DNA of 64,000 nucleotides from positions 1 through 64,000 of the forward strand of contig CAJJCT010000023.1 of assembly GCA_905182735.1 (NCBI GenBank). Direction: 5' to 3'. This document shows, piece by piece, positions 1,522-22,920 of this stretch. The notes under the pieces are model-generated. The model ran no database searches and was not told the origin of the DNA. It saw only the letters and a list, made by a program, of their open reading frames with translations. Position numbers and translations under genes: made by a program. Origin of the DNA: Candidatus Marivariicella framensis (GTDB lineage Bacteria; Bacteroidota; Bacteroidia; Flavobacteriales; Flavobacteriaceae). Position 1 is the stretch's first letter, and the number at the start of each line of letters is the position of its first letter.

Positions 1522-2166
1522 TTAGAATAAATTTTTTAATTCTTTTCTACTAAAGTAAATAGATATCAAATAAATTATTGGAGTCATTAACACCCAACTT
1601 GATTGCGCTTGTAATGTAATTGGTCTTCCGGCTATTTTAAAAAGAGTAGGATTGAACGAAGATCCTAGTGGATGCAATGGAGCCCATGAGAGATCACCAT
1701 TAGAGCCTAATTGAAGATTATAAAAGAATGCTTCAATATAAATATTTTGAATAACAAACCACAAAAGAAAAATTGTAAAAGCTCCCCAGTTCCATTTTAA
1801 AAAAGGTGATTTTTTATTTCTATATAAAAATTTTACTAAAAACAATCCTATCCAAACGATCAGCACATCTGCTAATGAGTTTAATAACCAATTTATGTTA
1901 ATTGGTATCGCGCAATTTAGAGCAGTACTTCTTCTTTCATCAACCGAAAGTCCTCCTCCTAATCCATAAGTAAGCCATATTTCCCAACCAAGAGAGACTA
2001 TTAAAAAAGCACTAATTAAAGTCAGTGTAACTCTAGATGAGACCTTGCTTTTAATTATGTAATATATTGACAAAACTATTGGAATAAATGCAGCAATGTA
2101 AAGACGTGTAACAAGCCAATATTCAGTATAATTTAAATCACAATATTTGAAAAAATCGAACATCAT
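1522..2166 (-). CDS. Multi-span membrane protein of unknown function
   Basis: This 214-residue product is almost entirely hydrophobic, with about five or six membrane segments (near residues 18-40, 47-66, 93-113, 128-147 and 188-206) separated by short polar loops. I see no catalytic motif or known family signature. It is convergent with the M20 peptidase (30 bp between stops) and stands alone. Two adjacent Met codons are possible starts. Unknown function. That it is a real gene rests on the consistent membrane pattern and on the lack of any competing frame. Confidence 0.6.
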   Translation of the reverse strand: MMFDFFKYCDLNYTEYWLVTRLYIAAFIPIVLSIYYIIKSKVSSRVTLTLISAFLIVSLGWEIWLTYGLGGGLSVDERRSTALNCAIPININWLLNSLADVLIVWIGLFLVKFLYRNKKSPFLKWNWGAFTIFLLWFVIQNIYIEAFFYNLQLGSNGDLSWAPLHPLGSSFNPTLFKIAGRPITLQAQSSWVLMTPIIYLISIYFSRKELKNLF

Positions 2167-2417
2167 TAAATATAATAAATTAAAAATACTTAAATTTATT
2201 GAAGAAGATTTGACTTAGTTACTGATAAGTTTCATTATTAACATGACGGGCTATTAAGACTCATATAAATAATATCATTACTATGTTTGAAAAATATTTA
2301 AAACATAAATAAAAGGGAAACACTAAATAAAAATTGGTTCGCAGTCACACTTATTTCCTTAGACTCCAGTCTTTTTGCTTATATTTACTTTTACAACACA
2401 ATTAAAAAGATATTAAA

Positions 2418-8723: not shown

Positions 8724-10208
8724 TTATTCTTCAGTTTTACTATTGGTGACGTAGTTTTTCCACTTTTTATACAATTCATTTAGCTCTTTTTCTATTTTTA
8801 CTTCTTTATAAATTAAATTTACTCTTTCTTCCACATCAATATCAAGGTTATTTAAAAATTCACCAAGTTCTAACTCCACCATTTCATATTTTGCTTCCTT
8901 GTCATTAAATGATTTACGTAGTTTCCAATTTCCTTTCCTTACTGCAATTTCATGACCAGTATCCCAAAAAAGATAATCGTGTTGAATGTTTTCGTTTATT
9001 CCTTGTAAAAGAGGAGAAAGACTAATTCCATCAACATAATTTGGAATTTTGATCTTAACCTCTTCGCATATTGATGGCAATATATCCATAGCGCTTACCA
9101 TATTTTTATAAACTCTACCTTTTTCATATTTTCTTGGATAAGAAACTAACAGCTGTGTTCTTATGCCTCCTTCATACAAAAGATATTTTGACCCTCTCAA
9201 AGGTGTATTGTCCGCATAAATTGGAGTTGAACCTCCATTATCACTAATAAAGAAAATAAGCGTGTTTTCTCGCAAATTCTTTTCTTCTAGCATATCGAGA
9301 AGTTTGCCAATTTCTTGATCCATGTAGTGTAATTGCCCCAAATAGTGTGCTCTTCCTTCTTCATTGTTTGGGTATCTTCCTTTGACATACCACTCATAAT
9401 ATTCTTCTACTGCTGGATTCCAATCATGATATCCTTTAAGTTTAAATTTATCTAAATATTCTTGAGGTAGTTGATGCGTAAAATTATGAGCAGCGTTAAA
9501 CGCAATTTGCAGAAAAAATTTATTGTCTTTGTTTTTATTAATAAACTTCCTAGATTTTTCACCCACTAATTTGGTGAAGAACGCAATAGTATCTACAGGA
9601 TTTTTATTTTCCCAAAGTGAACCTTGTCGCAATGTTTGTCCTTTTCTCATATACTTCTCTTTTGTTTCTATAAAAGCATCTTCAATCTCTTTTTTATGAT
9701 TCATATAATGCTTACGTGCAGAAGTGTGTCCAAAATAATAATCAAAACCATGATTAAGAGGAAAACTACGATTAGAAGTATCTGAATCATAGTCTCCATA
9801 ATGTACTTTACCAACATACCCTGAATGATAATCTTTTTGCTTTAACAATTCTGGAATAGTTTTATATTTAGAATCATGCAATCCATCAGCGCTGTACCAA
9901 TATGAACCTAAACGTTGAGGATAAACTCCTGTTATTATTCCAATTCTAGATTGATTACAGATGGGAGAATTGTCGTATGCTTGAGTAAAACGCACACCAC
10001 TATATGCTATACGATCAATATTTGGCGTAAATACGTCATTAGCCAATTTTGCACATCCAATATCTGCATAACCTAAATCATCTGCAACAATAAGGATGAT
10101 ATTGGGCGTAATGCTATTTTCAATTGGCGCGTTCTCATCTTTTGTTTTACAAGAAGTAATTATTGTAAATATTACTGGAATAATTAAGATTTTTTTTAAA
10201 TTGCTCAT
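8724..10208 (-). CDS. Sulfatase (alkaline-phosphatase superfamily) lipoprotein with unusual active-site motif
   Basis: This 494-residue product has a lipoprotein signal with Cys20 (TIITSC). The type I sulfatase fold is shown by VADDLGYADIG (metal-binding D43/D44), the active-site segment at Cys84 (CNQSRIGIITG), conserved HNFTHQ and DNGGST elements, and a C-terminal segment WKLRKSF. The active-site Cys would be converted to formylglycine. The canonical core is C-x-P/A-S-R, and here the third position is Gln. The likely role is desulfation of an algal or glycan substrate at the cell surface. No sulfatase-maturating enzyme or glycoside hydrolase lies in the window. The substrate is unknown. Confidence 0.85.
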   Translation of the reverse strand: MSNLKKILIIPVIFTIITSCKTKDENAPIENSITPNIILIVADDLGYADIGCAKLANDVFTPNIDRIAYSGVRFTQAYDNSPICNQSRIGIITGVYPQRLGSYWYSADGLHDSKYKTIPELLKQKDYHSGYVGKVHYGDYDSDTSNRSFPLNHGFDYYFGHTSARKHYMNHKKEIEDAFIETKEKYMRKGQTLRQGSLWENKNPVDTIAFFTKLVGEKSRKFINKNKDNKFFLQIAFNAAHNFTHQLPQEYLDKFKLKGYHDWNPAVEEYYEWYVKGRYPNNEEGRAHYLGQLHYMDQEIGKLLDMLEEKNLRENTLIFFISDNGGSTPIYADNTPLRGSKYLLYEGGIRTQLLVSYPRKYEKGRVYKNMVSAMDILPSICEEVKIKIPNYVDGISLSPLLQGINENIQHDYLFWDTGHEIAVRKGNWKLRKSFNDKEAKYEMVELELGEFLNNLDIDVEERVNLIYKEVKIEKELNELYKKWKNYVTNSKTEE

Positions 10209-10243
10209 CTATTAGTGTTTAATACATAAAACTTAAATGTAAT

Positions 10244-10284
10244 AAAAAAACCCTAACATATTGTTTGTAAATATATTAGGGAAT
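10244..10284 (-). terminator. Stem-loop terminator, sister of the one after tRNA-Ser
   Basis: The outer stem is CCCTAA/TTAGGG (10251-10256 with 10276-10281) and the inner stem is ATATT/AATAT. On the minus strand it runs into T7. It would end transcripts from the AraC gene. The near-identical element at 22789-22826 lies just after tRNA-Ser, which suggests common descent. Confidence 0.7.
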
Positions 10285-10307
10285 TTTGTTGCGGAGAAAG
10301 CGGGACT
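10244..10307 (-). repeat. Left copy of a 64-bp direct repeat including a tRNA-Ser 3'-end fragment (possible att scar)
   Basis: The segment matches 22789-22851 at most positions. Shared stretches include ccctaacatattg, tagggaattt and ttgcggagaaag. The last 17 bp (10291-10307) correspond to the tRNA-Ser 3' end with two mismatches, and similarity stops there. A partial tRNA 3' end plus its terminator, left at a distance from the intact tRNA, is what tRNA-targeting integration leaves. Confidence 0.55.
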
Positions 10308-10386
10308 GCATGAAAATAGGGAGTCGAGGTCATTGCTGAGTAATTTGTGACTCGGTGGGTATCAATTCCCATGTTCTATATATATT

Positions 10387-10408
10387 CGACCCACATACCG
10401 ACCCACAT
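10387..10408. repeat. Tandem direct repeat CGACCCACAT, 12-bp period
   Basis: The 10-mer cgacccacat occurs at 10387-10396 and again at 10399-10408. Similar short repeat pairs with a period of 11-12 bp lie at 17356-17374 and 22760-22777, which are the other apparent boundaries of this region. They may be recombinase arm sites. Confidence 0.4.
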
Positions 10409-10560
10409 GAATTTCCGTCTTGATCACCCGAATTGAGAAACAGGAAAGTGCTATGCTGATTAAAATCCATAAACCAAAAGCAGCATAATCAATCAGGGTA
10501 AATAAGAAAATCATCATGTATCGAATATACATAAATTGAGTTACCATTTACATTTATTCT

Positions 10561-11412
10561 TTAGCCGTCGGCAGTAGGGTTGTTTTTAAAGGCTGATGGA
10601 TTTTCTCCACTTATTTTTTTGAAGGTCCGGTTGAAGTACGATAAACTTTCGAAACCACAGCCATAACAGGCCTCACTTACATTCTTTCCGGTAAGGAGTA
10701 AGCGTTTGGACTGTGAAATTCGATACTGGTTTAAAAAGGCTGTAAAAGTGTTTCCACTGTGTTTCTTAAAGTACCGACAAAAAGCTTCTTTGCTTAGATT
10801 AACCAATTGCGCCACCTCTTCGACCTTAATTTTTCGGATGTAGTGTTCATCAATAAAAGAGTATACCTTTTGTAAGCGTTGCTGTTGTTTTTTATCCGAG
10901 GTATTGTAAACAGGTTGTTTGTGTAAAAGTTCAAACTCTTCAGACGAAGCAAGTGTTTTCAAGATTTGAATAACAGCAATGAATTGGTCAAAAGCATCCA
11001 ACAAATGCAGTGTTTTTATTTTTTCCCCGACAATCTTCTTTGTTTTTTCATGAAAGGCAATCCCGTGTTGTGCTTGTTCGAATAAGTTATAAATGCTCGA
11101 AAGCTCTCGAACCTGCTTAAAAATTTGTTCTTTAAAAGGAGGGCTTATGTGTAGAACCTCTTTTCTGTAAGCAGTCTTTATTCCGTAGTCAAAATTCAAA
11201 TGTGGAATGTTCGACCCAATCAACACCAAATCGCTTTGCTGGTAATTGGAACGATGCTTCCCAACATGTCGAGTCCCATCTGCTCCTTCGATATAGACCA
11301 ATTCATATTCTGGGTGAAAATGCCAAAAAAACAAGTCATTCAGTTTTGGATCGTGTAATAACCGAAACGAACTCTTGTCATCGGGTTGAATATTTTCGAG
11401 TTGAATTTTCAT
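10561..11412 (-). CDS. AraC-family transcriptional regulator with cupin sensor domain
   Basis: I choose the ATG at 11412 (MKIQLENIQ), giving 283 residues. The upstream extension to 11454 is hydrophobic and unlike the family. The N-terminal half is cupin-like (FFWHFHPEYELVYIEG, His-rich strands near residues 25-45) and probably binds a small ligand. The C-terminal roughly 100 residues hold two helix-turn-helix units (VEEVAQLVNLSKEAFCRYFKK, then VSEACYGCGFESLSYFNRTFK). It is divergent from the dioxygenase-symporter-SDR operon, so it probably controls that operon in response to its substrate. Base composition is less AT-rich than in the core genes, matching the operon beside it. Confidence 0.88.
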   Translation of the reverse strand: MKIQLENIQPDDKSSFRLLHDPKLNDLFFWHFHPEYELVYIEGADGTRHVGKHRSNYQQSDLVLIGSNIPHLNFDYGIKTAYRKEVLHISPPFKEQIFKQVRELSSIYNLFEQAQHGIAFHEKTKKIVGEKIKTLHLLDAFDQFIAVIQILKTLASSEEFELLHKQPVYNTSDKKQQQRLQKVYSFIDEHYIRKIKVEEVAQLVNLSKEAFCRYFKKHSGNTFTAFLNQYRISQSKRLLLTGKNVSEACYGCGFESLSYFNRTFKKISGENPSAFKNNPTADG

Positions 11413-11483
11413 TAAATTGTCATTTATCACACTTAATATAATCAATATGATCAATATAGTTCAAATTACAATCAATATCAAGG

Positions 11484-11514
11484 TTGTAGCCTTGTATTTA
11501 TACGTATAGATTTG
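11484..11514 (+). promoter_or_regulatory. Bacteroidota-type promoter of the dioxygenase operon
   Basis: A TTG at 11484-11486 and TAGATTTG at 11507-11514 are separated by 20 bp, fitting the Bacteroidota sigma-ABfr consensus (TTTG, 19-21 bp, TAnnTTTG). The start codon is 36 bp downstream. The divergent AraC gene lies on the other side, so its operator should lie around 11413-11484. Confidence 0.6.
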
Positions 11515-11550
11515 AATTATATATTTCCAAATTAACTTAAAGGCAGTATT

Positions 11551-12522
11551 ATGAAGAAAGAAGTAAAAACAACAATGGCCAATAAAGCCCATGAAGAAAT
11601 TCCGGGGAACCCATCCGTATCTACTAGTAGTGATCAAAAGCTAAACGACCGTTCGAACGGAAAGGCATTAAGGGTTCTGTCGGAAGAGGATTGGCAATTT
11701 TGGATGCACAATGGATATATCGTAATAAAGAATGCAATTCCTAAAGACCAAGCAAAAGCTACTGCAGATTTTTTATGGGAATTTGACGAGAAAGATCCGA
11801 ACGACCCATCGACCTGGTATTCGAATCCGCGGGCTGAAATGAAAATGAAAGAATTGGCAGGAACCGGAATGGTTGAGGCCTACAATCATCAAACCCTTTG
11901 GAATAATCGTCAGATGCAAAAAGTATACGATGCCTTTGTAGATGTATGGGGTACCGAAAAATTATGGGTAACAATTGATCGGGTAAACTTGAATTTTCCG
12001 CAACGACCCGGCGAAGAAAAAGAAGGCTTCATTCATTGGGATTATGATCCTGAAACCAGACCACAAAACGTACAGGGTGTTATTGCACTTGCCGATCAGA
12101 TGGACCCAAACATGGGTGGTTTTCAATGTATCCCGTGGCTGTACCGAAACTATAATACTTGGAAGCTAACCCAACCAGAAGACAGGGACCGTTTTAAACC
12201 CAATTTGGAGAAGTTAAAGGATAAGCTTGTAAAAGTAGTAATGGAAGCAGGAGACCTATTAATTTTTAACAGTACAGAACCCCACGGAATCCGTCCCAAC
12301 CGATCGGGGGATAAAGTCAGAATCGCACAGTATATTTCGATGATGCCCGCAGAAGAAGAGAATCAGGAACTCAAAGATTGGAGAGTAAACTCTTGGAAAA
12401 ACAGAATTGCCCCAGAAGGTTTTGCATTTCCTGGTGATCCGAGAAGTTGGGAGCAGAAAAAACATGAAACGGCTGAACTGTCCGAGTTGGGTAAAAAATT
12501 ATTGGGACTAAACAACTGGTAA
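11551..12522 (+). CDS. Phytanoyl-CoA-dioxygenase-family Fe(II)/2-oxoglutarate oxygenase
   Basis: The 323-residue product has the iron-binding facial triad H162-x-D164 (FIHWDYD) and H245 (STEPHGIRPN), with a likely 2-oxoglutarate-binding Arg at 257. This is the double-stranded beta-helix arrangement of the PhyH family. No signal peptide is present. Such enzymes hydroxylate or oxidatively cleave diverse small molecules, so the substrate cannot be read from sequence. It heads an operon with a sugar-type sodium symporter (33 bp to the next gene) and an SDR, under a probable AraC regulator, which points to oxidative catabolism of an imported compound. The local G+C is visibly higher than in the core, suggesting acquisition. 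Confidence 0.85.
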   Translation: MKKEVKTTMANKAHEEIPGNPSVSTSSDQKLNDRSNGKALRVLSEEDWQFWMHNGYIVIKNAIPKDQAKATADFLWEFDEKDPNDPSTWYSNPRAEMKMKELAGTGMVEAYNHQTLWNNRQMQKVYDAFVDVWGTEKLWVTIDRVNLNFPQRPGEEKEGFIHWDYDPETRPQNVQGVIALADQMDPNMGGFQCIPWLYRNYNTWKLTQPEDRDRFKPNLEKLKDKLVKVVMEAGDLLIFNSTEPHGIRPNRSGDKVRIAQYISMMPAEEENQELKDWRVNSWKNRIAPEGFAFPGDPRSWEQKKHETAELSELGKKLLGLNNW

Positions 12523-12555
12523 AAGAAAGAATAGAACGACATAAAACAGTATTAC

Positions 12556-14235
12556 ATGCTAACATCATTAAGTTTATTAGACATTTTTATTATACTAATT
12601 TATTTTGGAATTATTCTATGGATAGCCCATTGGGCTTCAAAAAGTAAAAGCGAGTCAGGGCGGGCAGTTGATTATTTTTTAGCAGGAAAGAACTCTGGAT
12701 GGCTGGTTATTGGAGCATCTCTTTTTGCCTCAAACATTGGATCTGAAATTATCCTGGGAGTTTCGGGTGCAGGAGCTCGAGGTAATATGCCTATGGCAAA
12801 TTTTGAAATAATAGCTTCCTTAGTATTGATACTATTGGGCTGGGTTTTTGTCCCTTTTTATTTACGTACGGGCGTATTTACGATGCCCGAATTTTTAGAG
12901 AAACGGTATTCTGTAGCGTGTCGGAATTATCTCTCTATAATTTCGATTTTGGCCTATGTAATTACAAAGATTTCTTTAATCATCTTTGCCGGTGCATTGG
13001 TATTCGAAACGATCGGAATTTCTTTCTGGACCGGTGCAATTATTACCGTTGTTGCAACTGGGTTTTATACCGTTTTAGGGGGATTAAAAGCTGTGATTTA
13101 TACGGATATGGTTCAAGCGTTTATTCTGCTTTTGGGAACCATATGTGTTACAGGATTTGGACTTTACGCACTTGGAGGATGGGATAATTTATTAACCATA
13201 CTTACCGAAGCCTCTGCAGTAGAAGGAAATCCACCCCGAGAACAGTTTTTTAACCTATGGCGACCCATGGCTGACACGGAATATCCATGGACAGGAATGC
13301 TGTTTGGAGCACCTATTTTAGGGGTTTGGTATTGGTGTACGGATCAATACATTGTTCAGCGAGTACTTTCCTCTAAAGACGAAAACAATGCAAGGAAAGG
13401 AGCCTTGTTTGCGGGGTATTTAAAATTACTACCGGTATTCATCTTCTTTATTCCGGGGGTAATTGCTTATGCGCTTTTACAAGAAGAAGCAATTGATTTT
13501 TCAATTGAAAATGCAGATCAAGCACTTCCCGCTATGATTAACCAATTTTTACCTACAGGATTAAAGGGACTTGCGATTGCGGGATTACTAGCTGCTTTAA
13601 TGAGCTCACTTTCTTCAGCATTTAATTCTAGCTCAACACTCTTAACGATCGATTTCTATTTGAAATATAAGCCAAAGGCATCCCAAAAAGATTTGGTTCG
13701 TTTTGGACAATTTGCTACCGTTATTTTAGTGGTTGTTAGTTTGGGATGGATACCCTTTATGAAATCATTAATGGGTGGGGGAATTTTTCACTACCTACAA
13801 AGTATTCAGGCATATATATCTCCTCCAATTGCTGCTGTTTTTCTTTTTGGATTGTTCTATAAATGGATTAACGCAAAAGGTGCAATCGTATCATTGTGGT
13901 TAGGTTTTATCCTAGGAATTTTTAGATTAGTAGCAGAATTTCTTTATAATGAAGGAAGTCTAGTTGTTGCGGAAGATTCACTTTTAGGGCTTTTTATAGG
14001 CGTAAACTTTTTGCATTTTGCCTTATTTTTATTCCTCTTCTGTGCTTCAGTTTTAATGCTTGTTAGTAAACTGACACCACCTCAGCCATTAGAAAAACTA
14101 GAATTAGTTACCTTTAAATCGAGGAGCCTTAGACCTAAATTTATATGGTCAACGGATATGACCTTAACAGTACTATTAATTGGACTAGTATTGATGATTT
14201 GGACACTGTTTAGTCCTTGGGGTATTGCAAATTAG
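12556..14235 (+). CDS. Sodium:solute symporter (SSS family), SGLT-like
   Basis: The 559-residue protein is predicted to have 13-14 membrane helices. The segment YFLAGKNSGWLVIGASLFAS followed by NIGSE (about residues 40-65) is the signature of the SSS family, and the NIGSE form is typical of the glucose/galactose-transporter branch (vSGLT-like). Sodium-driven uptake of a sugar or polyol is the best guess. It is the second gene of the AraC-controlled operon and would feed the dioxygenase and SDR. It is full length and the reading frame is intact. Confidence 0.87.
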   Translation: MLTSLSLLDIFIILIYFGIILWIAHWASKSKSESGRAVDYFLAGKNSGWLVIGASLFASNIGSEIILGVSGAGARGNMPMANFEIIASLVLILLGWVFVPFYLRTGVFTMPEFLEKRYSVACRNYLSIISILAYVITKISLIIFAGALVFETIGISFWTGAIITVVATGFYTVLGGLKAVIYTDMVQAFILLLGTICVTGFGLYALGGWDNLLTILTEASAVEGNPPREQFFNLWRPMADTEYPWTGMLFGAPILGVWYWCTDQYIVQRVLSSKDENNARKGALFAGYLKLLPVFIFFIPGVIAYALLQEEAIDFSIENADQALPAMINQFLPTGLKGLAIAGLLAALMSSLSSAFNSSSTLLTIDFYLKYKPKASQKDLVRFGQFATVILVVVSLGWIPFMKSLMGGGIFHYLQSIQAYISPPIAAVFLFGLFYKWINAKGAIVSLWLGFILGIFRLVAEFLYNEGSLVVAEDSLLGLFIGVNFLHFALFLFLFCASVLMLVSKLTPPQPLEKLELVTFKSRSLRPKFIWSTDMTLTVLLIGLVLMIWTLFSPWGIAN

Positions 14236-14252
14236 AAAACAACATATAGAGA

Positions 14253-15047
14253 ATGGATTTAGAATTAAAAGGGAAAACGGTTTTTATTACAGGATCAACA
14301 GCCGGAATTGGGTTTTCAACTGCAAAAGCGTTGCTCAGCGAAGGCGCTAGCGTCATCCTGAATGGCCGAACCTCCGCAACAGTAGAGTCTGCTATTAAAC
14401 GCTTAGAACAAGAGTTCCCTGAAGAAGCGATTTCTGGTATAGCTGCTGACTTCAGCATACTAAATGAAGTGAACAATCTCTTAGAAAACCTACCCAAAAT
14501 AGATATCCTAATTAATAATGTTGGTGTGTATTCTTCCGGCTCTTTTTTTAAAACAGATGATGCGGAATGGTATCGTCAGTTTGAAGTAAATGTGATGAGT
14601 GGGGTCCGATTATCGAAAAGCATCCTGCCGAGTATGTTGGCCAATAATTGGGGACGGATTTTGTTTATTTCCAGCGAGTGTGCTAGCCTAACCCCTCCTG
14701 ATTTAATTGCATACAGCATGACCAAAGCCGCTATTTTAGCAGTTTCTCGCGGTCTAGCTCAATTAACAAAAGGAACCAATGTCACTGTAAATTCAGTGAT
14801 TCCTGGTTCTACTTTGTCCGAAGGAGCTGAACAATTTTTAGAAGCTGCCGCACAAAAGGAACAGAAGACAAAAGGTCAAATAGAAAATGCTTTTTTCACA
14901 GAAGTTAGAACGACCTCATTGCTTCAGCGTTTTGCAAAAGTGGATGAAGTAGCCCACACGATTACATATATAGCCAGTCCGCGTTCTTCCGCAACAAACG
15001 GGACTTCAATTAAAGTTGATGGGGGAAGTTCTGGAGGGTTGTTTTAG
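14253..15047 (+). CDS. Short-chain dehydrogenase/reductase (SDR)
   Basis: The 264-residue enzyme has the NAD(P)-binding TGSTAGIG motif (residues 13-20), the NNVG motif (88-91), structural N113, and the catalytic Ser140/141, Y154 and K158 (YSMTK). The C-terminal ATNGTSIKVDGG is the usual SDR end. It would oxidise or reduce a hydroxyl/keto group of the compound handled by the upstream dioxygenase and symporter. It is the last gene of the operon, 17 bp after the symporter stop, and faces the convergent esterase. Cofactor preference is not certain. Confidence 0.88.
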   Translation: MDLELKGKTVFITGSTAGIGFSTAKALLSEGASVILNGRTSATVESAIKRLEQEFPEEAISGIAADFSILNEVNNLLENLPKIDILINNVGVYSSGSFFKTDDAEWYRQFEVNVMSGVRLSKSILPSMLANNWGRILFISSECASLTPPDLIAYSMTKAAILAVSRGLAQLTKGTNVTVNSVIPGSTLSEGAEQFLEAAAQKEQKTKGQIENAFFTEVRTTSLLQRFAKVDEVAHTITYIASPRSSATNGTSIKVDGGSSGGLF

Positions 15048-15093
15048 TTTCAGCCGTTTTAATATTAAAAGTAGATAGAAATAATTAATAATT

Positions 15094-16836
15094 TTAAAAG
15101 CCCCAGTTTTTGAGTTTATGGTTTCTAGGAGCCGTTTTTTTCAATCGGCCTTTTATCTTATCAAGATACATAGTGTTGTAACGAAGACGTGAAATATAAT
15201 TTGGATTTTCTTGATCTCCATTCCAGCAATGTTCAGCATTATTACCATAATCAACTTCACCACCATAATAGGGGTTTTTTGTAGATTCTAAAAATTCTTC
15301 AGTGAGCACAACTGCATTGTTTAGATAATAATTATCCATGTCGCCACAGTAGATATTTATTTTTCCTTCCAGATCCTTTCCAATTTTATCCCAATCCCGC
15401 TGCATGATATAACTTAGGTCGTAATTTTCCTTCCAGTAATTTGCTACATCATGATCTATTTCACCTGTAAGTTTGTCCCATATAGGCATAGGATATCCAT
15501 CTTTTCCAACCGGCGAATAAACTGCTTGCCAGATATCCCATTGGTCACCAGATCTACCTTTATCTCCTAATATAAATTCTCTTCTGTTCATATCGATTAA
15601 TTGTGTTTTGATATGTCCTTTTCCATCTCTCATTCCAGGGCGAAGAATCTTCCTAAAAGTTCCGCTTTTGTAGTAAGCATTTTTATCTTTATAAATATCA
15701 ACAACAGTATAGGCTCTAAAATCAATTGGATCTGGACAGGCAGCAAAGCAACCGTTGTACTGTTTAGGATAAAAAACTTGAACAGCTAATGCTTCCCATC
15801 CGCCAGTTGATCCCCCATATAAAAATCGACCCCAGCCTTCTCCAACACCGTTGAACATTTTTTCAATTTGTGGGATAAGTTCGTAAGTGATTGCATCACC
15901 ATAAGGACCAAGGTTTGCAGAATTTACCGCATAGGAATCATCGTAGTAGGGGTTTTGGTGTTGGATTTCTATCACAAGAAACCTAGGAAAATCATCCGAC
16001 ACCCAATTTTTGTAGAAATCGTATGCTTCTTTTTCTTGTATGTATTTATAACCTGTAATTCCAAACCTACTACTGAAAATTGTATCTTTTTCAGGAGCAG
16101 TAGGAGGGGTAGTTCGAAACCCTCCAATTGTTTTGGGGAAATGCCCATGAAAAACCATTAATGGATATTGGGTTTTACTTTCTTTATTAAATCCTTGTGG
16201 AACTAAAACATTGGCTTGAAGATACATTGGTGTTCCCCAAAAATTTGAGAGAAGTTCACTTTTGATTTTAACATGTTTTATGTATTTAGAATCTTCAACA
16301 GGTTCTATTGGAGGAATTTCTTCAGTTATTACAATTTCAAAAGGTCTCTTACTGTTTTTATCAAACTCTATTTTAATGGGCTTACTATAAATGTTCTTTG
16401 GACTGGTATTCCAGTGTTGACCTTCTCCTTGATCCATAGGAAGTTGAACAGTATGCCCGCTTGACAGATTAAAAGTGTCGTATTTATGGAGTAAGGCTTG
16501 AACAAAATAAGTTCCTGATTTGAGTTGGTTTAAATTTTCAATTGGGTAAGCCTGTGCAGAAGAATTAAATAATTCTTTTTGGCCTGGTGTCCACTGTTGA
16601 ACATTTTTTCCAATGATTATTCCTGTTTCATTTGAATCGTTAATTTGAAAGCGTGGCTCTTTAAGTGAATCTTTAGTGATCATTAATAAAAGACGACCAT
16701 CATAACCTTCTAATCCTAATGCGGAGTCGTAAGTAACCTCAAAGATTGTAGCCTCTTTAGTATTACATCCAGCTAAAACTATAACTAAACATAATGCAGC
16801 AGAATAGGCTAGAAAAAAACTTTTTAAATTATTCAT
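15094..16836 (-). CDS. Putative esterase (alpha/beta hydrolase) lipoprotein
   Basis: The 580-residue product starts with a lipoprotein signal (IVLAGC, Cys24). Residues 27-180 form a beta-rich N-terminal region without recognisable motifs. The C-terminal part is an alpha/beta hydrolase of the esterase-D type, with the nucleophile elbow GGSTGG at Ser343 and late DMDNYYLNN and AEHCWNG segments that may provide the Asp and His. It is probably exposed on the cell surface or in the periplasm and cleaves ester bonds on a polysaccharide or other polymer. It is followed by, and probably cotranscribed with, the upstream NTF2-like lipoprotein gene (2-bp gap). Confidence 0.75.
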   Translation of the reverse strand: MNNLKSFFLAYSAALCLVIVLAGCNTKEATIFEVTYDSALGLEGYDGRLLLMITKDSLKEPRFQINDSNETGIIIGKNVQQWTPGQKELFNSSAQAYPIENLNQLKSGTYFVQALLHKYDTFNLSSGHTVQLPMDQGEGQHWNTSPKNIYSKPIKIEFDKNSKRPFEIVITEEIPPIEPVEDSKYIKHVKIKSELLSNFWGTPMYLQANVLVPQGFNKESKTQYPLMVFHGHFPKTIGGFRTTPPTAPEKDTIFSSRFGITGYKYIQEKEAYDFYKNWVSDDFPRFLVIEIQHQNPYYDDSYAVNSANLGPYGDAITYELIPQIEKMFNGVGEGWGRFLYGGSTGGWEALAVQVFYPKQYNGCFAACPDPIDFRAYTVVDIYKDKNAYYKSGTFRKILRPGMRDGKGHIKTQLIDMNRREFILGDKGRSGDQWDIWQAVYSPVGKDGYPMPIWDKLTGEIDHDVANYWKENYDLSYIMQRDWDKIGKDLEGKINIYCGDMDNYYLNNAVVLTEEFLESTKNPYYGGEVDYGNNAEHCWNGDQENPNYISRLRYNTMYLDKIKGRLKKTAPRNHKLKNWGF

Positions 16837-16838
16837 AT

Positions 16839-17282
16839 CTAGTCATTTATCTGCTCAGAAAAGTAAAATTTGAATTTTAATTTTCCATCTTTTTTGACTA
16901 GGTATGCACTTTCAAGCCACTCATAAGATAAAAAGGTTTTTCCGTCAGGTGTTGGGGTCTCTAACTCAAACTCTCCTATGTGTTCTAAACTAATGTGAGC
17001 AGAATTAATATCTGTATCTATAACTAAATTTTTGAACTCTCTTTTTGACTTAAATTCTCCAAAACCTTTAACAAATTGAATGAATTCATCAGTGTTCCAT
17101 TTTCTGCTAACTTCAAATATCATATAATCATCAGTCAGGTAGTCTCTAATTTTTTCTACATCATTATCCAGAAAATAAAAAAACTCATTAAATGTTTTCA
17201 TTACTTCTTCCTCGGAAATCTTTTTTGGTTTACTACAAGCTATAAATAAAAGAGCAAGTAAAGTCAAAGATATTTTTCTCAT
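16839..17282 (-). CDS. SnoaL/NTF2-like lipoprotein
   Basis: The 147-residue product has a lipoprotein signal with Cys16 (LLFIACSKP). The rest has the helix-then-curved-sheet pattern of the NTF2/SnoaL fold: VMKTFNEFFYFLDN, DYLTDDYMIFEV, then alternating strands ending in KDGKLKFKFYF. Proteins of this fold are ligand-binding or small enzymes, and no catalytic residue can be named. It is the first gene of the two-gene unit with the esterase. Assignment is by fold pattern only. Confidence 0.6.
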   Translation of the reverse strand: MRKISLTLLALLFIACSKPKKISEEEVMKTFNEFFYFLDNDVEKIRDYLTDDYMIFEVSRKWNTDEFIQFVKGFGEFKSKREFKNLVIDTDINSAHISLEHIGEFELETPTPDGKTFLSYEWLESAYLVKKDGKLKFKFYFSEQIND

Positions 17283-17355
17283 TATCTAATTTTTGTTCAT
17301 AATATCTAATATAAGTAAATTAAAAAAACATTGTAGACTTTTCACAAACTAATCA

Positions 17356-17374
17356 GGGACAAGTTTCGGGACAA
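17356..17374. repeat. Tandem direct repeat GGGACAA, 12-bp period
   Basis: The 7-mer gggacaa occurs at 17356-17362 and 17368-17374. It sits in the divergent gap between the esterase unit and the surface protease genes, so it may mark a junction within the island. Compare 10387 and 22760. Confidence 0.4.
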
Positions 17375-17452
17375 ATTAAAAGAAGTTATTTCATATTACA
17401 AGTATATGCAATATTCATAAAATTGAGATATTTTTGAATAAAATTTAACACT

Positions 17453-19051
17453 ATGAAAAAGCTACTTCTTGTTTTACTGTTTGTTCCACTTGTTTATTGT
17501 TCTTCAGATAGTGAAAGTGAAGCTACAACACCACCTCCAACCACTACAACTCCTCCGCCTGTTGTAAATTATACTCTCACCGTTAGTGCGGGAGATGGTG
17601 GAGCTGTTAGTTCAACAGGAGGCACTTATACCTCTGGAGAATCAGTAAGCATTACGGCTACAGCTAATTCAGAGTATGTTTTTTCAGGATGGTCTAACGG
17701 TTCTACTGATAATCCTTTGAGTGTAACGATGAACTCAAACCAAACTATTACCGCATCATTTGAAAAGGTAACATATACTTTATCAACTTCTACTGAAGGA
17801 GAGGGAACGGTTACAGAGGTTTTGGTTTCTTCTGGAAGAACTGCAGATTATAATTCTGGAAGTTTGGTAAGATTAACTGCTGTGCCATCAGATGGATGGA
17901 GTTTTAATGGATGGACTGGAGACTATATTGGAGTAGAAAACCCTATAGAGGTAGATGTTACCCAAGCTAAAAGTTTTAATGCGGTTTTTGAAGCACAACC
18001 ATCAGTGAGTTCAACTTATTTAGGTACAAATTGTAAAGAAGTTTCTTACTCAAGTAAGCCTGATGCAGATTATGTCAATGGTGATTATTCTTATTACACA
18101 TACGGATGGCAATCGGATGGGACAGACCAAAATTCCTGTGTTAATGCCTATAACGGGGTTACTACTTTTGGAGTAGATTTGGTCAATGCTGTTTTGTCTG
18201 ACGCGAAAGAAAAACTGGGTCAAATTGTCCCAGTAAATGCTTGGATATTCCATACTCAAAATTCAGATATAGAAACTATTTGCTCAGACTACTCACCCTT
18301 TACAGACGATTCAAGCTGTTTTGATCTTCAACAAATGGCTGCTGCAACGGTTACACAATATGTATTACATAATGGTGGAGAATTTAAACTTTCTGAAATT
18401 TTCTGGAGTGATGAACAACAAAATGGTACAGGTTATAAGGTTGCTTACCATGAATTTTTTCACGTCCACCAAAATTCTCATAAGTTTTATTTCGAAGAAA
18501 CTGAGAATTTTGGTATCAACATGACACAATTTAGAAATGTTGATGACAACGAGGGAGTAAATTTAGTTGGACCCGTATGGCTTGAAGAGGGGGGAGCTGA
18601 GTTTGCAGGCGTTTGGTACTCATCTTTAAAAGGATGGGTAAACTATAATGAAAATTGGATAAATTATTTGGATGAAGCCAGAAGTGTTATTTCTGACGCT
18701 GCATCGAGAGGGGATATAGTTTCTTTGAGGGATTACGAGACTAGATATTCGATTCAGAAAGTAGAATCTTCTGAAAATCCAACGGGCACATCAAGAGAAT
18801 TCGCATATGCATATTCAGGAGGTGGACTAGCACATATATACTTAATTAGTAAGGGCTTTACTGATTTAAATAATTCAATGATTGAGTATTACAGGAACAT
18901 AGCAGAATTAGAAAGGGAACATATTGGCGAGGGATATATTTATGCATTTGAGGAATATTTTGGAATGCCTTTAGATAGTTTTTATACTGAATTTGACGAT
19001 TTTATGTTGAAACCTAGAGAAGAACAATTATCTATCCTAGGATTAGAATAA
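17453..19051 (+). CDS. Surface lipoprotein: InlB-type repeats plus HExxH metalloprotease-like domain
   Basis: The 532-residue product has a lipoprotein signal (Cys16, LVYCSSDS) and a Thr/Pro-rich linker (residues 24-40). Two repeat units follow (about 42-105 and 107-180), each with a GxGxV...G...Y..G..V.ltA.p..gw.F.GW pattern ending in F, typical of divergent InlB B-repeat/bacterial repeat domains. The C-terminal domain has H333-E-F-F-H337 and, about 40 residues later, WLEEGGAEF, which could supply the third ligand as in gluzincins. It is probably a surface-anchored zinc protease. The substrate is unknown. It is followed by another secreted metalloprotease. Confidence 0.7.
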   Translation: MKKLLLVLLFVPLVYCSSDSESEATTPPPTTTTPPPVVNYTLTVSAGDGGAVSSTGGTYTSGESVSITATANSEYVFSGWSNGSTDNPLSVTMNSNQTITASFEKVTYTLSTSTEGEGTVTEVLVSSGRTADYNSGSLVRLTAVPSDGWSFNGWTGDYIGVENPIEVDVTQAKSFNAVFEAQPSVSSTYLGTNCKEVSYSSKPDADYVNGDYSYYTYGWQSDGTDQNSCVNAYNGVTTFGVDLVNAVLSDAKEKLGQIVPVNAWIFHTQNSDIETICSDYSPFTDDSSCFDLQQMAAATVTQYVLHNGGEFKLSEIFWSDEQQNGTGYKVAYHEFFHVHQNSHKFYFEETENFGINMTQFRNVDDNEGVNLVGPVWLEEGGAEFAGVWYSSLKGWVNYNENWINYLDEARSVISDAASRGDIVSLRDYETRYSIQKVESSENPTGTSREFAYAYSGGGLAHIYLISKGFTDLNNSMIEYYRNIAELEREHIGEGYIYAFEEYFGMPLDSFYTEFDDFMLKPREEQLSILGLE

Positions 19052-19246
19052 AGCATACTTTGCAAGGTTTAAATGAATCTAACTTTAAACTAAGGTTCAT
19101 GATATTTACCAATCTAAGAATTTTAGATCTAAAGTATCAGTATAAAGTTACGATAGGAAGATTGGGTAACCACAGAAGATATGTGACTTCTTACAATATT
19201 TAATCTCCTAAATAATAGTCTGCAATATCTTCTTCTTTTAAATCAG

Positions 19247-19264
19247 GTATTTTTAATTCCTTAC
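19247..19264 (+). promoter_or_regulatory. 18-bp upstream element shared with 4251-4268
   Basis: Identical to the 18-mer upstream of the 4303 gene. Here it ends only 10 bp before the ATG at 19275, so a promoter role would place the transcript start very close to the start codon. A shared origin by duplication is the alternative. Confidence 0.4.
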
Positions 19265-19274
19265 ATTTAATACT

Positions 19275-22200
19275 ATGAAAAAGTTACTTCTTCTACTTTT
19301 ACTCCCGATAGTTTCTTTTAGTCAAGACTCTTTAATTTGCGTAATTGATAATGCAAACAATTTACTTCCTTCATCATATAATTTGAATGCAAATAATTTA
19401 AAAAAAACAAACGACAATAAAGAGACGATGAATCTCTGTGTTGCGGTTGGAGGTAAAGTCTGGAAAGATAACAGTCGAAACTCTTTATATGATAATAATG
19501 AACCTCTGATTGAAGGGGTTAATGTTGCTCTCTATAGTGATGATGATGGGGATGGGAATCCTACTAATTGGAATGGAGCTATTAAAACTGATCAAAATGG
19601 AGAATATAGGTTTAGTGGTTTAGATCCTGGAAAATATATTGTATTTATTTGGTTAGTTGATAACTGGGGTGTAAATGAACCATTACACAACTTGTACTCT
19701 TCACCAATTTTTTCTGCAGACCCTAATAATGATATTATAAATGATAATAGTGGTCCTGGAGAGCAAATGTTTGATTTGTCATTTTATCCTAAACCAAGAG
19801 GTCCAAGAGATATACGTAGTGGGATTATTGATCTTTCAATAAACGAAGAACCTACGAATGAAAATGTAGTCATGAATGTTGGAGATTGTTCTGACAGTTC
19901 AGAAAACATGACTATTGATTTTGGTTTTTATTCTAATGAGATTTCTCCTTGTGATTGGATTCCCTCCGGAGATGGACTTTCTGAATTTATATTAGCCTTA
20001 AACGCAATGACAAATCATGTGAATGATAACAACTTATTAATTGAAAATCAATTAATAAATCATTTGAACACCATCAAAAGCTATGCATTATGTAATCTTT
20101 CGGCTGCAAAAACAGAGATATTTGATTTTACAGATACTTACGAGGAAAACAATCCTCCTGTTTTTTCCAACAATAATAGCCCAGTCAAGTTCTCTGAACT
20201 AGCAATTGAGACACAAGCATTCATCTTTTTACAACAAACTATTTTTGATGAACAATATTCAGACTCTAATTTAATTAATATGTCAGGAATTAAGTATGAA
20301 GCGGCTAACCATTTTCCTGGAGAAGTTAATCAAAATGCTCCAAGAGTTGAAAGTACATTGGTTGAGATTGATGGTAATTATAGTTATGTTCCTGGCGCTA
20401 GACATTTAGGTGATACCTGGCCTGCTAAGAGACCTACTGGCTATTATGTAGCTCCAGGAGAGCTAGTTACCATTACAATTCCCAATGATTTTATAGATAA
20501 AGAACTCAAAGTAAAGGTTGGTGTTCACGAGAGAGACCATTCAAACCTTGGAGAAACTAATCGATTTTTAAGAATATCCAAAGATTACAAATTAGATAAT
20601 GAAATAACTACCATTATGAATCCTTTTGGAGGAGGTATTTATATTTTAGTTCCTGAAGGATCAAGCCTAGGTTCATTTAATATTACAATTAATGGGGCTG
20701 TTAAAGCTCCTTATTTTTCGTGTAGAAATGAAAATGAGACCAATCTTAGCGTATGGCAAGATGAATTAGCTAGTCAAAACGTTCCATGGGCAGATATAGA
20801 AGGAGATAAATTTATGATGACCGTCAGAAGTGATCACCTCTACGGAAATGGTTCAATAAATTTAACAGATCCAACTTTTTTAATGCAAAAATGGGATGAG
20901 GTAGCAGATGCCTTTAATTTCATTGGAGGTAGACCTCCTTTCAGATCTCGAGCAGAGTATATCATTTCTGATTCAAGAATACCTGATGGAAGTTATGGAA
21001 CTGGTTATCCTGCAGTATACGACCAAAATGATAATGGAATGATTCCCACTTCTTTACTTTTTGAAAACAGTTATACTGATGGAGGAGTAATGACATTGTT
21101 TCATGAAATGGGACATCTAGAATGGCATCCTACTTTAAATAAAAGTATAGAATCAATAGTTCACTTACCTGCAGTTTACTTATGGAATACCTACGATAAC
21201 GTTCCATTAGATATAGCTTTTAAATATTCTGCATTTCAGAGATTAACGATGGATCAAACAACTATAGATTGGATTATGACCGATAATTTCAGAAATAATA
21301 GACCAATGGAATGTGATCCAACTGTGGAGTCAAGTGTTTGCCAAGAAGTTAGATATCAACACAGGGGTCATGCTATGTATGTTGAAATAGCTGAACTTTT
21401 CGGCTGGGAAGCCATATATAATACTCATAAAATATTTTATGACGAATGGAAAGATAATGACCAAGAAGAATGGAATTTCATGAATCCTTCTAATGGAAAT
21501 AGCATAGAAGGTGATGAATTAATCCTAGCAGCATCTAATTCTAACCAAGTTAACATGGCTCCGCTTTTTCATTTTTGGGGACTTCACCCATCAAATTCAA
21601 TAATGAGTCAATTAAATAGCTTACCTAATTCCTGTCAGATATATAACAGAATTCTTCACTATAAATCAATAACCCCTGATAATACTGAAGAATTTAAAAC
21701 ATGGTATGATTTGAATTATGAACCAGTAGGTGGAGTTCAACAAGTTAGGTATGACTATGCACTAAGTAATTATGATTCCGATAATTACAGTCAAAAAATA
21801 AATGAGCAAATTGATTTTATTATTGAAACTTACTTTGGTGATGAAAATTATAACTCTAATGGTATAATTGAATGTCCTGATAACCTTATACAAGAACCTT
21901 TTAATCCTCCAGCCAATAACTTTAATGTTGGAGTTGTTGGTGCTTCATGTGTTGGTCAAAGTAGTGGTAAAATAAACATTTTATTAGTTGACCAATCTAA
22001 AAACTATATAGCTTCTTTAGATGGAAATGAATTTATTAATTTTAATCTCACTAAAGGATACAGTCAATCTTTTGAAAACCTTAGTACTGGGGTTCATCAG
22101 GTGTGTTTTTCTGTAGATGTTGATGCTAATTTTACTAGGTGCTTCTCCCTTAACGTAACAGAACCGCAACCACTATCAGTTTATTCTAAAGTAGATTCTT

Positions 22201-22625
22201 CCAAAAAATCATTATCGCTGAATATGGGTGGATCAAATAGATATACGATAAGACTAAATGGTAAAATATCAGTAATTGAATCGAACTTTTCTGAACTTCA
22301 ATTAAAATCGGGGATCAACCTACTTGAGGTTTACACCGACCAGGAATGTCAAGGAGTTTATACTGAAGAAATTTTTGTTAGTGAAGAAGTTCAATACTAT
22401 CCAAACCCAACTAGTGGATCTGTTCAGGTATTTGTCTCTGGAGAAGACAAACAGGTAAATCTAAGCATTAATGGTGTTAGCGGTTATTGTTATTCCGATC
22501 AATCAGTCGCCGTATCTAGTTCAAGAAAAATTGATTTGGACCTGTCTTCATTTAATAATGGGGTATACATTATTAATGTTGAAGGACCAACAGTTAGTAA
22601 ATCATTTAAGATAATTAAAAAATAG
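19275..22625 (+). CDS. Secreted M60-like metallopeptidase with SdrD-type domain and T9SS sorting domain
   Basis: The 1116-residue product has a signal peptide (1-17). An SdrD B-like beta domain follows (about 53-165: GGKVWKDNSRNSLYD..., GEYRFSGLDPGKY). An M60-like peptidase region covers about 370-760, with the accessory motif ARHLGDTWPAKRPTGYY and the active site H610-E-M-G-H614 with E626 as likely third ligand. The end (residues 1043-1116, YYPNPTSG...NNGVYIINV...KSFKIIKK) is a type A T9SS sorting domain, so the protein is exported across the outer membrane. M60-like enzymes attack glycoproteins such as mucins. Preceding it is another surface metalloprotease, which suggests a joint role. Confidence 0.82.
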   Translation: MKKLLLLLLLPIVSFSQDSLICVIDNANNLLPSSYNLNANNLKKTNDNKETMNLCVAVGGKVWKDNSRNSLYDNNEPLIEGVNVALYSDDDGDGNPTNWNGAIKTDQNGEYRFSGLDPGKYIVFIWLVDNWGVNEPLHNLYSSPIFSADPNNDIINDNSGPGEQMFDLSFYPKPRGPRDIRSGIIDLSINEEPTNENVVMNVGDCSDSSENMTIDFGFYSNEISPCDWIPSGDGLSEFILALNAMTNHVNDNNLLIENQLINHLNTIKSYALCNLSAAKTEIFDFTDTYEENNPPVFSNNNSPVKFSELAIETQAFIFLQQTIFDEQYSDSNLINMSGIKYEAANHFPGEVNQNAPRVESTLVEIDGNYSYVPGARHLGDTWPAKRPTGYYVAPGELVTITIPNDFIDKELKVKVGVHERDHSNLGETNRFLRISKDYKLDNEITTIMNPFGGGIYILVPEGSSLGSFNITINGAVKAPYFSCRNENETNLSVWQDELASQNVPWADIEGDKFMMTVRSDHLYGNGSINLTDPTFLMQKWDEVADAFNFIGGRPPFRSRAEYIISDSRIPDGSYGTGYPAVYDQNDNGMIPTSLLFENSYTDGGVMTLFHEMGHLEWHPTLNKSIESIVHLPAVYLWNTYDNVPLDIAFKYSAFQRLTMDQTTIDWIMTDNFRNNRPMECDPTVESSVCQEVRYQHRGHAMYVEIAELFGWEAIYNTHKIFYDEWKDNDQEEWNFMNPSNGNSIEGDELILAASNSNQVNMAPLFHFWGLHPSNSIMSQLNSLPNSCQIYNRILHYKSITPDNTEEFKTWYDLNYEPVGGVQQVRYDYALSNYDSDNYSQKINEQIDFIIETYFGDENYNSNGIIECPDNLIQEPFNPPANNFNVGVVGASCVGQSSGKINILLVDQSKNYIASLDGNEFINFNLTKGYSQSFENLSTGVHQVCFSVDVDANFTRCFSLNVTEPQPLSVYSKVDSSKKSLSLNMGGSNRYTIRLNGKISVIESNFSELQLKSGINLLEVYTDQECQGVYTEEIFVSEEVQYYPNPTSGSVQVFVSGEDKQVNLSINGVSGYCYSDQSVAVSSSRKIDLDLSSFNNGVYIINVEGPTVSKSFKIIKK

Positions 22626-22759
22626 GCATATCTTCTTCAATTGGATAATATACCCATATAGCGAAGCACTCCCAAAAAGCAAAGTGGATTTAATTTTAGA
22701 GTAGTGGGGTAATTCTTTAAGTTCTTGGAACAGATTTTTTAGACTTTTAGATCACTAGC

Positions 22760-22777
22760 CGTACAATAATCGTACAA
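22760..22777. repeat. Tandem direct repeat CGTACAA, 11-bp period
   Basis: The 7-mer cgtacaa occurs at 22760-22766 and 22771-22777, about 12 bp from the terminator of tRNA-Ser. It resembles the repeat pairs at 10387 and 17356 in size, period and the shared ACAA core of two of the three. Confidence 0.4.
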
Positions 22778-22788
22778 ATACGCATAAT

Positions 22789-22826
22789 AAAAAACCCTAA
22801 CATATTGATAATTAATATACTAGGGA
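22789..22826 (-). terminator. Terminator of tRNA-Ser
   Basis: The stem CCCTA/TAGGG (22795-22799 with 22821-22825) has an inner ATATT/AATAT stem and, on the minus strand, a T6 tail. It begins 10 bp after the tRNA 3' end. Confidence 0.78.
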
Positions 22827-22851
22827 ATTTACTTGCGGAGAAAGAGGGATT
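22789..22851 (-). repeat. Right copy of the direct repeat (tRNA-Ser 3' end plus terminator)
   Basis: This is the intact counterpart of 10244-10307: the terminator and the last 16 bases of the tRNA-Ser gene. It marks the probable right edge of the 12.5-kb island. Confidence 0.55.
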
Positions 22852-22920
22852 CGAACCCCCGGAGGTGTGACCCTCAACAGTTTTCAAGACTGCCGCATTC
22901 GACCACTCTGCCATTTCTCC
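22836..22920 (-). tRNA. tRNA-Ser (anticodon UGA)
   Basis: The minus strand folds as an 85-nt tRNA with acceptor stem GGAGAAA/TTTCTCC, discriminator G, T-arm GGGGGTTCGAATCCCTC, a long class II variable arm and anticodon loop CTTGAAA with anticodon TGA (plus-strand 22884-22886). No CCA is encoded. The long variable arm and G discriminator fit serine. An open frame read across this gene is an artefact. Confidence 0.95.

Follow-up and report, generated by a model that had tools for sequence, protein, structure and literature searches.

A 64,000-nucleotide (nt) stretch of the genome of Candidatus Marivariicella framensis (contig CAJJCT010000023.1, positions 1 to 64,000; hereafter the window) contains an intact tRNA-Ser(UGA) gene whose 3' end faces a run of eight genes, and the far border of this run carries a second copy of the tRNA 3' end and its terminator. 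The eight genes are a four-gene block of foreign composition, a weakly esterase-like gene, a small gene, and two genes for an InlB-repeat protein and an M60 metallopeptidase, both with signs of secretion. Between and beside them lie short tandem repeats, a module at the right end, and copies of a dispersed sequence, called the tag below, that resembles the 3' end of a tyrosine-recombinase gene. This report concerns how the interval was assembled and what the tag may be. The features are collected in Table 1. The window's own assembly (G000) comprises 1.90 Mb in 40 contigs and is 86 % complete; other genomes, contigs and recombinase loci are given as G, C and L numbers.

Table 1 Features of the interval at tRNA-Ser(UGA) and of its surroundings in the window
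Feature	Position	Strand	Evidence or remark
Weak cassette-type site, left flank	2159..2220	-	profile E 1e-5
Sulfatase	8724..10208	-	left of the interval
Putative displaced older terminator, left copy	10244..10288	-	repeat alignment, hairpin
Displaced tRNA-Ser 3' end, about 17 nt	10289..10307	-	repeat alignment
Tandem repeat CGACCCAC x2, period 12, arm-like, left end	10387..10408		same type as the G001 right end
Four-gene block: AraC-type regulator, PhyH dioxygenase, sodium:solute symporter, short-chain dehydrogenase (SDR)	10561..15047		foreign composition
Weakly esterase-like protein	15094..16836	-	Pfam below cut-off; 91 % nt identity in G001, at the same tRNA
Small cargo gene	16839..17282	-	no family match
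Internal element end: module end and GGGACAA x2 (17356-17374)	17331..17387
InlB-repeat protein, cargo	17453..19051	+	apparently secreted, from its N-terminus
Cassette-type site ahead of the M60 gene	19223..19290	+	profile E 8.9e-11
Secreted M60 metallopeptidase with type IX secretion system (T9SS) tail, last cargo gene	19275..22625	+
Short recombinase-3'-end-like fragment overlapping the M60 gene stop codon	22625..22640	-	profile match 22608-22640, E 9e-5
Right-end module	22641..22757		recurs at G004 transfer-messenger RNA (tmRNA) gene (90 %) and G000 tRNA-Ala (89 %)
Tandem repeat CGTACAA x2, period 11, presumed integrase arm sites of the right end	22760..22777
Right copy of the tRNA terminator	22789..22834	-	repeat alignment, hairpin
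Intact tRNA-Ser(UGA), presumed integration target	22835..22920	-	ARAGORN, Rfam, start of right-flank homology

The two copies of the tRNA-derived repeat (10245-10305 and 22789-22849) are 61 nt long, 87 % identical and separated by 12,544 bp from start to start. Their gapped local alignment scores 85, compared with 25 to 31 in ten first-order Markov shuffles of the window (one strand each) and 30 at the next best place in the window with the query excluded, and the next match across the G000 assembly (E 3.3e-6) falls at tRNA-Ser(GCT). A 12-pair terminator-like hairpin is kept on the minus strand of both copies (10281-10251 and 22825-22795). The right copy runs on into tRNA-Ser(UGA), the sole tRNA found by ARAGORN in the window (RF00005, 59.7 bits), and the left copy retains about 17 nt of the tRNA 3' end (10289-10305) and diverges beyond. 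The interval thus has at its far border the duplicated tRNA 3' end that characterizes elements integrated at tRNA 3' ends. An initial annotation of the window had described both the matching copies and the abrupt stop of the left one inside the tRNA, and the alignment bears out both statements.

The right border coincides with a change in conservation among sister genomes. The order of tauE, ribBA and the genes further rightward is conserved in G001, G002, G003, G004 and G006, with the RibB domain confirmed above the TIGR00506 cut-off; the tRNA-Ser beside this right side is present in G001 to G004, the contig of G006 ends in tauE, and G005 has no tauE match. DNA homology with all four of these sisters begins at window position 22832-22835, the tRNA 3' end, and to the left of the tRNA each holds different content. 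The distance from the left anchor, lpxD (LpxD above the TIGR01853 cut-off), to the tRNA is 2.1 kb in G003, 7.5 kb in G004, 9.9 kb in G002 and 17.5 kb in G001, and a second lpxD-like copy occurs elsewhere in G004. In G000, lpxD ends 668 bp from the end of a separate contig, C39, so that, given the same arrangement, its variable region would span at least 22.8 kb. The variable region extends to the left of 10244, since in G001 other contigs carry the sulfatase and further genes of the left flank (the sulfatase segment, 8738-10256, has a 95 % identical counterpart there). Window positions 1-127 are identical to the end of G000 contig C17; the window therefore begins at an assembly break, probably within the variable region.

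The sisters differ strongly in the single secreted or degradative genes that they hold at the tRNA-Ser locus. Only G001 among the four shares a whole gene of the island here, the esterase-like one, with homology limited to 15087-16838 and different neighbours; its other likenesses are a partial match to the repeat domain of the InlB-repeat gene and a 75-bp start-of-gene match. Close relatives with the same genes at the same place and no junction, named beforehand as evidence against an island, were not encountered. No exact empty site was found in the four sisters, none of which joins the 10.24-kb position to tRNA-Ser; the nearest to one is the short arrangement of G003, which has no arm-like tandem repeat near the tRNA. 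Displaced ends occur at the locus in other genomes: in G002, a sequence 88 % identical over 78 bp to the right end of the window's interval lies about 0.23 kb left of the tRNA, and another displaced end lies at tRNA-Ser in G032. In G038 (L050), a second near-complete tRNA-Ser copy (95 % over 82 bp) is separated from the intact tRNA by 8.7 kb that contains other genes.

Outside the terminator at tRNA-Ser, five of six genomes carry two copies of a word of 7 to 9 bp, 11 or 12 bp apart. The words are CGTACAA in the window, TCGACCCAC in G001, CGTACCCA in G004, CGTAAGTAA in G002 and AGGCAAC in G026; G003 has none. The internal end at 17331-17387 shares 95 % identity with the element end at tRNA-Ala on G000 contig C25, which carries GGGACAA pairs, and the right-end module occurs with two different repeat types and targets. 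A small gene in the module was considered and not adopted: the minus-strand frame lacks an ATG and, although uninterrupted in two copies, is disrupted in the remaining one of the three. A start-of-gene block at 17378-17491, made up of a promoter region and the opening codons, has a 114-bp counterpart of 98 % identity at the end of contig C24, and similar blocks recur at many places.

Similar pairs also lie beside five accessory integrases of the genus, three of them at mnmE 3' ends (G000:C36, L070; G004:C18, L069; G001:C5, L072), one at a tRNA-Met and one at a displaced tmRNA-like end. Four of the five exceed the PF00589 cut-off (the fifth, L073, is cut by a contig end) and four exceed that of PF13102 (L071 is 0.2 bits below), and L071 carries the arm-binding domain PF17293. 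The mnmE 3' end is a second integration hotspot of the genus; mnmE gave the best matches for the three gene ends, which fall below whole-protein cut-offs because the ends are partial. In G004, CGTACAA repeats are found on C17, together with an integrase and the displaced tmRNA-like end, and on C22, together with an intact tmRNA gene (RF00023, 142.6 bits); the fragment on C17 (L073) gave no Rfam match and was recognized as tmRNA by eye. The two contigs seem to be the two ends of one tmRNA element with CGTACAA pairs at both. Because such pairs accompany integrases and recur at both of these ends, they were taken as probable arm sites of the resident integrase. The notion that paired repeats are specific to the tRNA-Ser locus was dropped once they were found beside integrase genes and other tRNAs. 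A census of G000 and G001 located a pair within 150 bp 3' of 9 of 65 tRNA genes; the 5' side yielded three of the 65, and the window background predicts 1.4.

The G+C content at third codon positions (GC3) is 0.29 to 0.40 in the four-gene block (G+C 0.37 to 0.42), compared with 0.16 to 0.21 in 19 right-flank genes, 0.18 to 0.24 in eight left-flank genes and 0.21 to 0.25 in the other four island genes. The deviant composition reported for the left half of the interior is therefore genuine and confined to 10561-15047. No integrase is present among the eight interval genes, again as initially described, and the PF00589 matches of G000 all lie on other contigs. The interval was probably built up by two or more insertions, probably three, that have since lost their integrases. 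Tyrosine integrases would insert elements that each supply a tRNA 3' end and a terminator; each insertion would renew the tRNA 3' end at the right border and push the previous terminator, with about 17 nt of tRNA, leftward, and 10244-10307 would be one such displaced end.

A single ordinary 12.5-kb genomic island, integrated once at tRNA-Ser and then decayed, would account for the displaced tRNA end opposite the intact tRNA and for a block of foreign composition. We regard it as improbable: its arm-like repeats would have to differ between the two ends, with a third type inside, the foreign composition is restricted to one block, the region left of 10244 is also non-syntenic, and the only element with pairable ends, the G004 tmRNA element as tentatively paired above, has the same repeats at both. 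The differing end repeats, the internal third type and the displaced ends in G002 and G032 point to serial insertion, which a single old island fails to explain. Of the island proposed in the initial annotation, integration at the tRNA 3' end is thus supported, by the displaced end and by the start of homology with G001 to G004 at that position, and the single, old and fixed 12.5-kb unit is not.

The dispersed tag was traced from the start of the right-end module, GGCATATCTTCTTC. A search of seven genus genomes with a 26-bp pattern and up to three mismatches returned 39 places in six of them (22 in G000 and 12 in G001), and none for the backward pattern used as control; the window has one pattern match, at 19222-19247 with two mismatches. 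Read on the other strand, the tag mostly gives P-[ED]-L-[TK]-E-E-D-M-P or a near variant, its substitutions largely preserve the peptide, and on G001:C10 the frame continues upstream as a tyrosine-recombinase C-terminus. The match G005:C5:91849 lies inside a 215-codon reading frame and is probably due to chance. A tag profile was trained on 32 sites, including the C25 module copy, excluding the window's own places and still holding G005:C5:91849; it gives the cassette-type sites of Table 1 and 14 matches (E <=0.01) in 28.5 kb of G000 contig C11, several of which were training sites. A viral origin found no backing, with no relatives among 37 pattern matches in viral contigs. A search with the 33-residue C-terminus (E <=0.05) matched 22 of 299 family genomes and returned both full-length recombinases and short C-terminal fragments. 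On G232:C13, three fragments of a recombinase gene's own 3' end lie downstream of that gene (10629-11672, minus strand); each interval holds one or two genes, all facing the recombinase. Of nine segments shared with G001, five have an end in G001 that lies no more than 150 bp from a tag, a count that is illustrative only because the loci were chosen partly for holding tags or matches.

A family search of genome contigs yielded 227 candidates, 182 of which encode a relative; the 80 best were kept and gave 79 recombinase loci (L245-L323). By record title 76 of these are from Bacteroidota and the other three are labelled Nitrospirae, Rhodobacteraceae and Euryarchaeota. The stop codon lies inside the locus in 76 of the 79, and 65 of those passed a length and tyrosine-motif filter. 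Each of the 65 genes was cut into 30-codon tiles, and each tile was searched against the remainder of its own locus with the reversed sequence as control. The last 30 codons have 37 extra copies in 26 loci, of which 30 lie downstream on the same strand, two downstream on the opposite strand and five upstream; all other tiles have 0 to 5, and the control gave no copies for tiles 0 to 10 and one for tile 11. The 30 downstream same-strand copies, among which one L249 site is counted twice and the L250 alignment is weak (18 bp), end at the stop codon (median -1 bp, quartiles -8.75 and 1) and begin at a median of -72 bp (quartiles -84.75 and -59.5), 26 of them within 100 bp. The intervals so delimited have a median length of 879 bp and hold one open reading frame of at least 60 codons in 20 of 30 cases, two in seven, none in two and four in one. 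Their coding capacity amounts to 6459 amino acids facing the recombinase and 2249 in the other direction, compared with 10309 and 9901 in control sequence more than 2 kb past the last tag. At least one such copy accompanies 22 of the 65 recombinases and two or more accompany seven (six with the L249 site counted once), so that gene units separated by a repeated site do occur beside a recombinase gene, as in integrons.

All four tag-family recombinases tested match PF00589 above cut-off. Their best NCBIfam match is XerA-like and they score 18.5 to 27.1 bits against the integron integrase model TIGR02249 (cut-off 265), so none of the four is an IntI-type integrase by this model; the nearest solved chain is the XerC-like 4a8e (E 2.7e-9). 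The conserved histidine and tyrosine of tyrosine recombinases, H321 and Y330, are invariant in seven recombinases, and we take them to be catalytic. Counts made by hand from the locus listing, for 62 recombinase genes with at least 60 bp upstream, gave 17 in which a tRNA 5' end faces the start codon at 32 to 57 bp and 24 in which a tandem pair begins within 26 bp of it. The facing of these upstream tRNAs suggests that the family may integrate at tRNA genes from the 5' side. At G026:C51 (L215, 3067-3407), the module, tandem repeats, a terminator and a 5'-truncated tRNA-Met stand directly beside a family recombinase; the missing 5' end was judged by eye, and Rfam gave no above-threshold tRNA at that locus.

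Taken together, we read the locus as a tRNA-Ser(UGA) hotspot of serial insertions combined with integron-like cassettes at the 3' end of a recombinase gene. This reading is built on the displaced ends, the repeat types, the identity of the tag and the confinement of the duplication to the recombinase 3' end, with its boundaries and strand, and we place its probability at about 0.7. In the interval, the secreted-protein genes would be flanked by 3'-end copies of a tyrosine-recombinase gene that is distinct from the integrases acting at the tRNA. A circular cassette, presumably consisting of one gene and one copy of the recombinase 3' end, would recombine into the recombinase's own 3' end, restore its reading frame and displace the previous 3'-end copy, with the tag-family recombinase as the likely catalyst and a crossover within the shared 3' end. 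At even odds stands the wider proposition that Flavobacteriia possess a gene-capture system that resembles integrons without being related to IntI. Its site would be the 3' end of the recombinase gene and would overlap the codon for the tyrosine taken to be catalytic; each capture would swap the C-terminus, the former end would become the next site, and the window would hold orphan cassettes of this system in a tRNA-Ser hotspot.

Several observations weigh against this account. The window's tag is weak at two of its three places, and the place at 22625 is without the second half of the pattern. No attC-like folding was seen, seven strands of five sites giving no significant fold (z -1.0 to 0.25). 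No downstream same-strand copy is present in the available sequence of 43 of the 65 recombinases, and only a single one in 15 of the 22 loci that have any (16 with the L249 site counted once), which counts because an ordinary element with its attachment site in its own integrase gene also yields one. Five extra copies, three of them downstream, were found for tile 1. Strong synonymous conservation had been expected at the recombinase 3' end and a modest value was obtained (0.534 in the last 24 codons, equalled by 25 of 299 body windows), so a DNA-level constraint there is not clearly evident. The tandem pairs are assigned as arm sites from their position, and the window holds ten such repeats, three of which were assigned to element ends, so that single ones do arise by chance. 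The PF00589 scan of G000, at the completeness given above, found no cassette-family recombinase; its three PF00589 places comprise two of the XerC/XerD size class and the integrase beside mnmE.

The last of these points, tags in G000 yet no family recombinase found, would suit an explanation in which the tags are debris of complete elements whose recombinase was deleted and whose 3' end was left, with no cassette recombination, as would the prevalence of single copies at recombinase loci and the ending of G000 contigs C22, C24 and C25 in repeats of these kinds. Random deletion predicts fragments of all lengths, whereas the downstream copies mostly begin close to the stop codon, the remainder of the gene is seldom duplicated, and the genes between tags mostly face the recombinase; we consider debris rather unlikely. 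That the tags are terminator or promoter sequence shared at gene borders and spread by homologous recombination between repeats would agree with their location at gene ends, with the common start-of-gene sequence that often comes after them and with the 98 % identity of the 114-bp start-of-gene repeat at two loci, but it leaves their in-frame reading as a recombinase C-terminus with a largely kept peptide, and their duplication beside intact recombinase genes, without a cause, and appears improbable.

The repeat and the integration at the tRNA are ordinary in kind, and it is the tag system that could be new; a literature search of limited extent returned no description of a cassette site at an integrase 3' end. 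The interval resembles islands and integrative elements of tRNA 3' ends in its displaced tRNA end and terminator, its arm-like repeats and its hotspot behaviour, and differs from the ordinary ones in being serial and composite and in having no integrase within it. SSV-type archaeal integrases, named after Sulfolobus spindle-shaped viruses, carry attP inside the integrase gene, and integration splits the gene. The tag system likewise has a recombination site within the integrase gene, and differs in that the recombinase gene would stay whole, because the incoming copy would supply the end. Staphylococcal chromosome cassette (SCC) elements insert in tandem at the 3' end of rlmH and restore its C-terminus, using serine recombinases. 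The tandem insertion at a gene 3' end with a restored C-terminus is alike in the two systems; the serine recombinases and the unrelated target gene of SCC are not.

Tycheposons of Prochlorococcus, also reported in Methylophilaceae (PMC10872708), share the tRNA border, the tyrosine recombinase, the cargo genes and the small genome. The passages of PMC10872708 used for the comparison do not mention a recombinase-3'-end array.

Integrons and clusters of attC sites lacking integrases (CALINs) are described in PMC8618304 in terms of IntI, attI and attC. As in integrons, a tyrosine recombinase stands beside mostly one-gene units and the repeated site has one orientation, and, as in CALINs, orphan arrays without recombinase occur, for example on G000 contig C11. 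The tag system departs from integrons in that it has a recombinase other than IntI and a repeated site formed by the 3' end of that recombinase's gene; its tag sites have no significant single-strand fold, and its genes mostly face the recombinase and would seem to bring their own promoter. It would work like an integron but lacks two of the defining traits, an IntI-type integrase and a folding attC. If the account is correct, tagged cassettes would explain how genes move one at a time between these genomes and could be listed by profile search, and the tag system would represent a second, independent origin of integron-like gene capture, seemingly with double-stranded sites.

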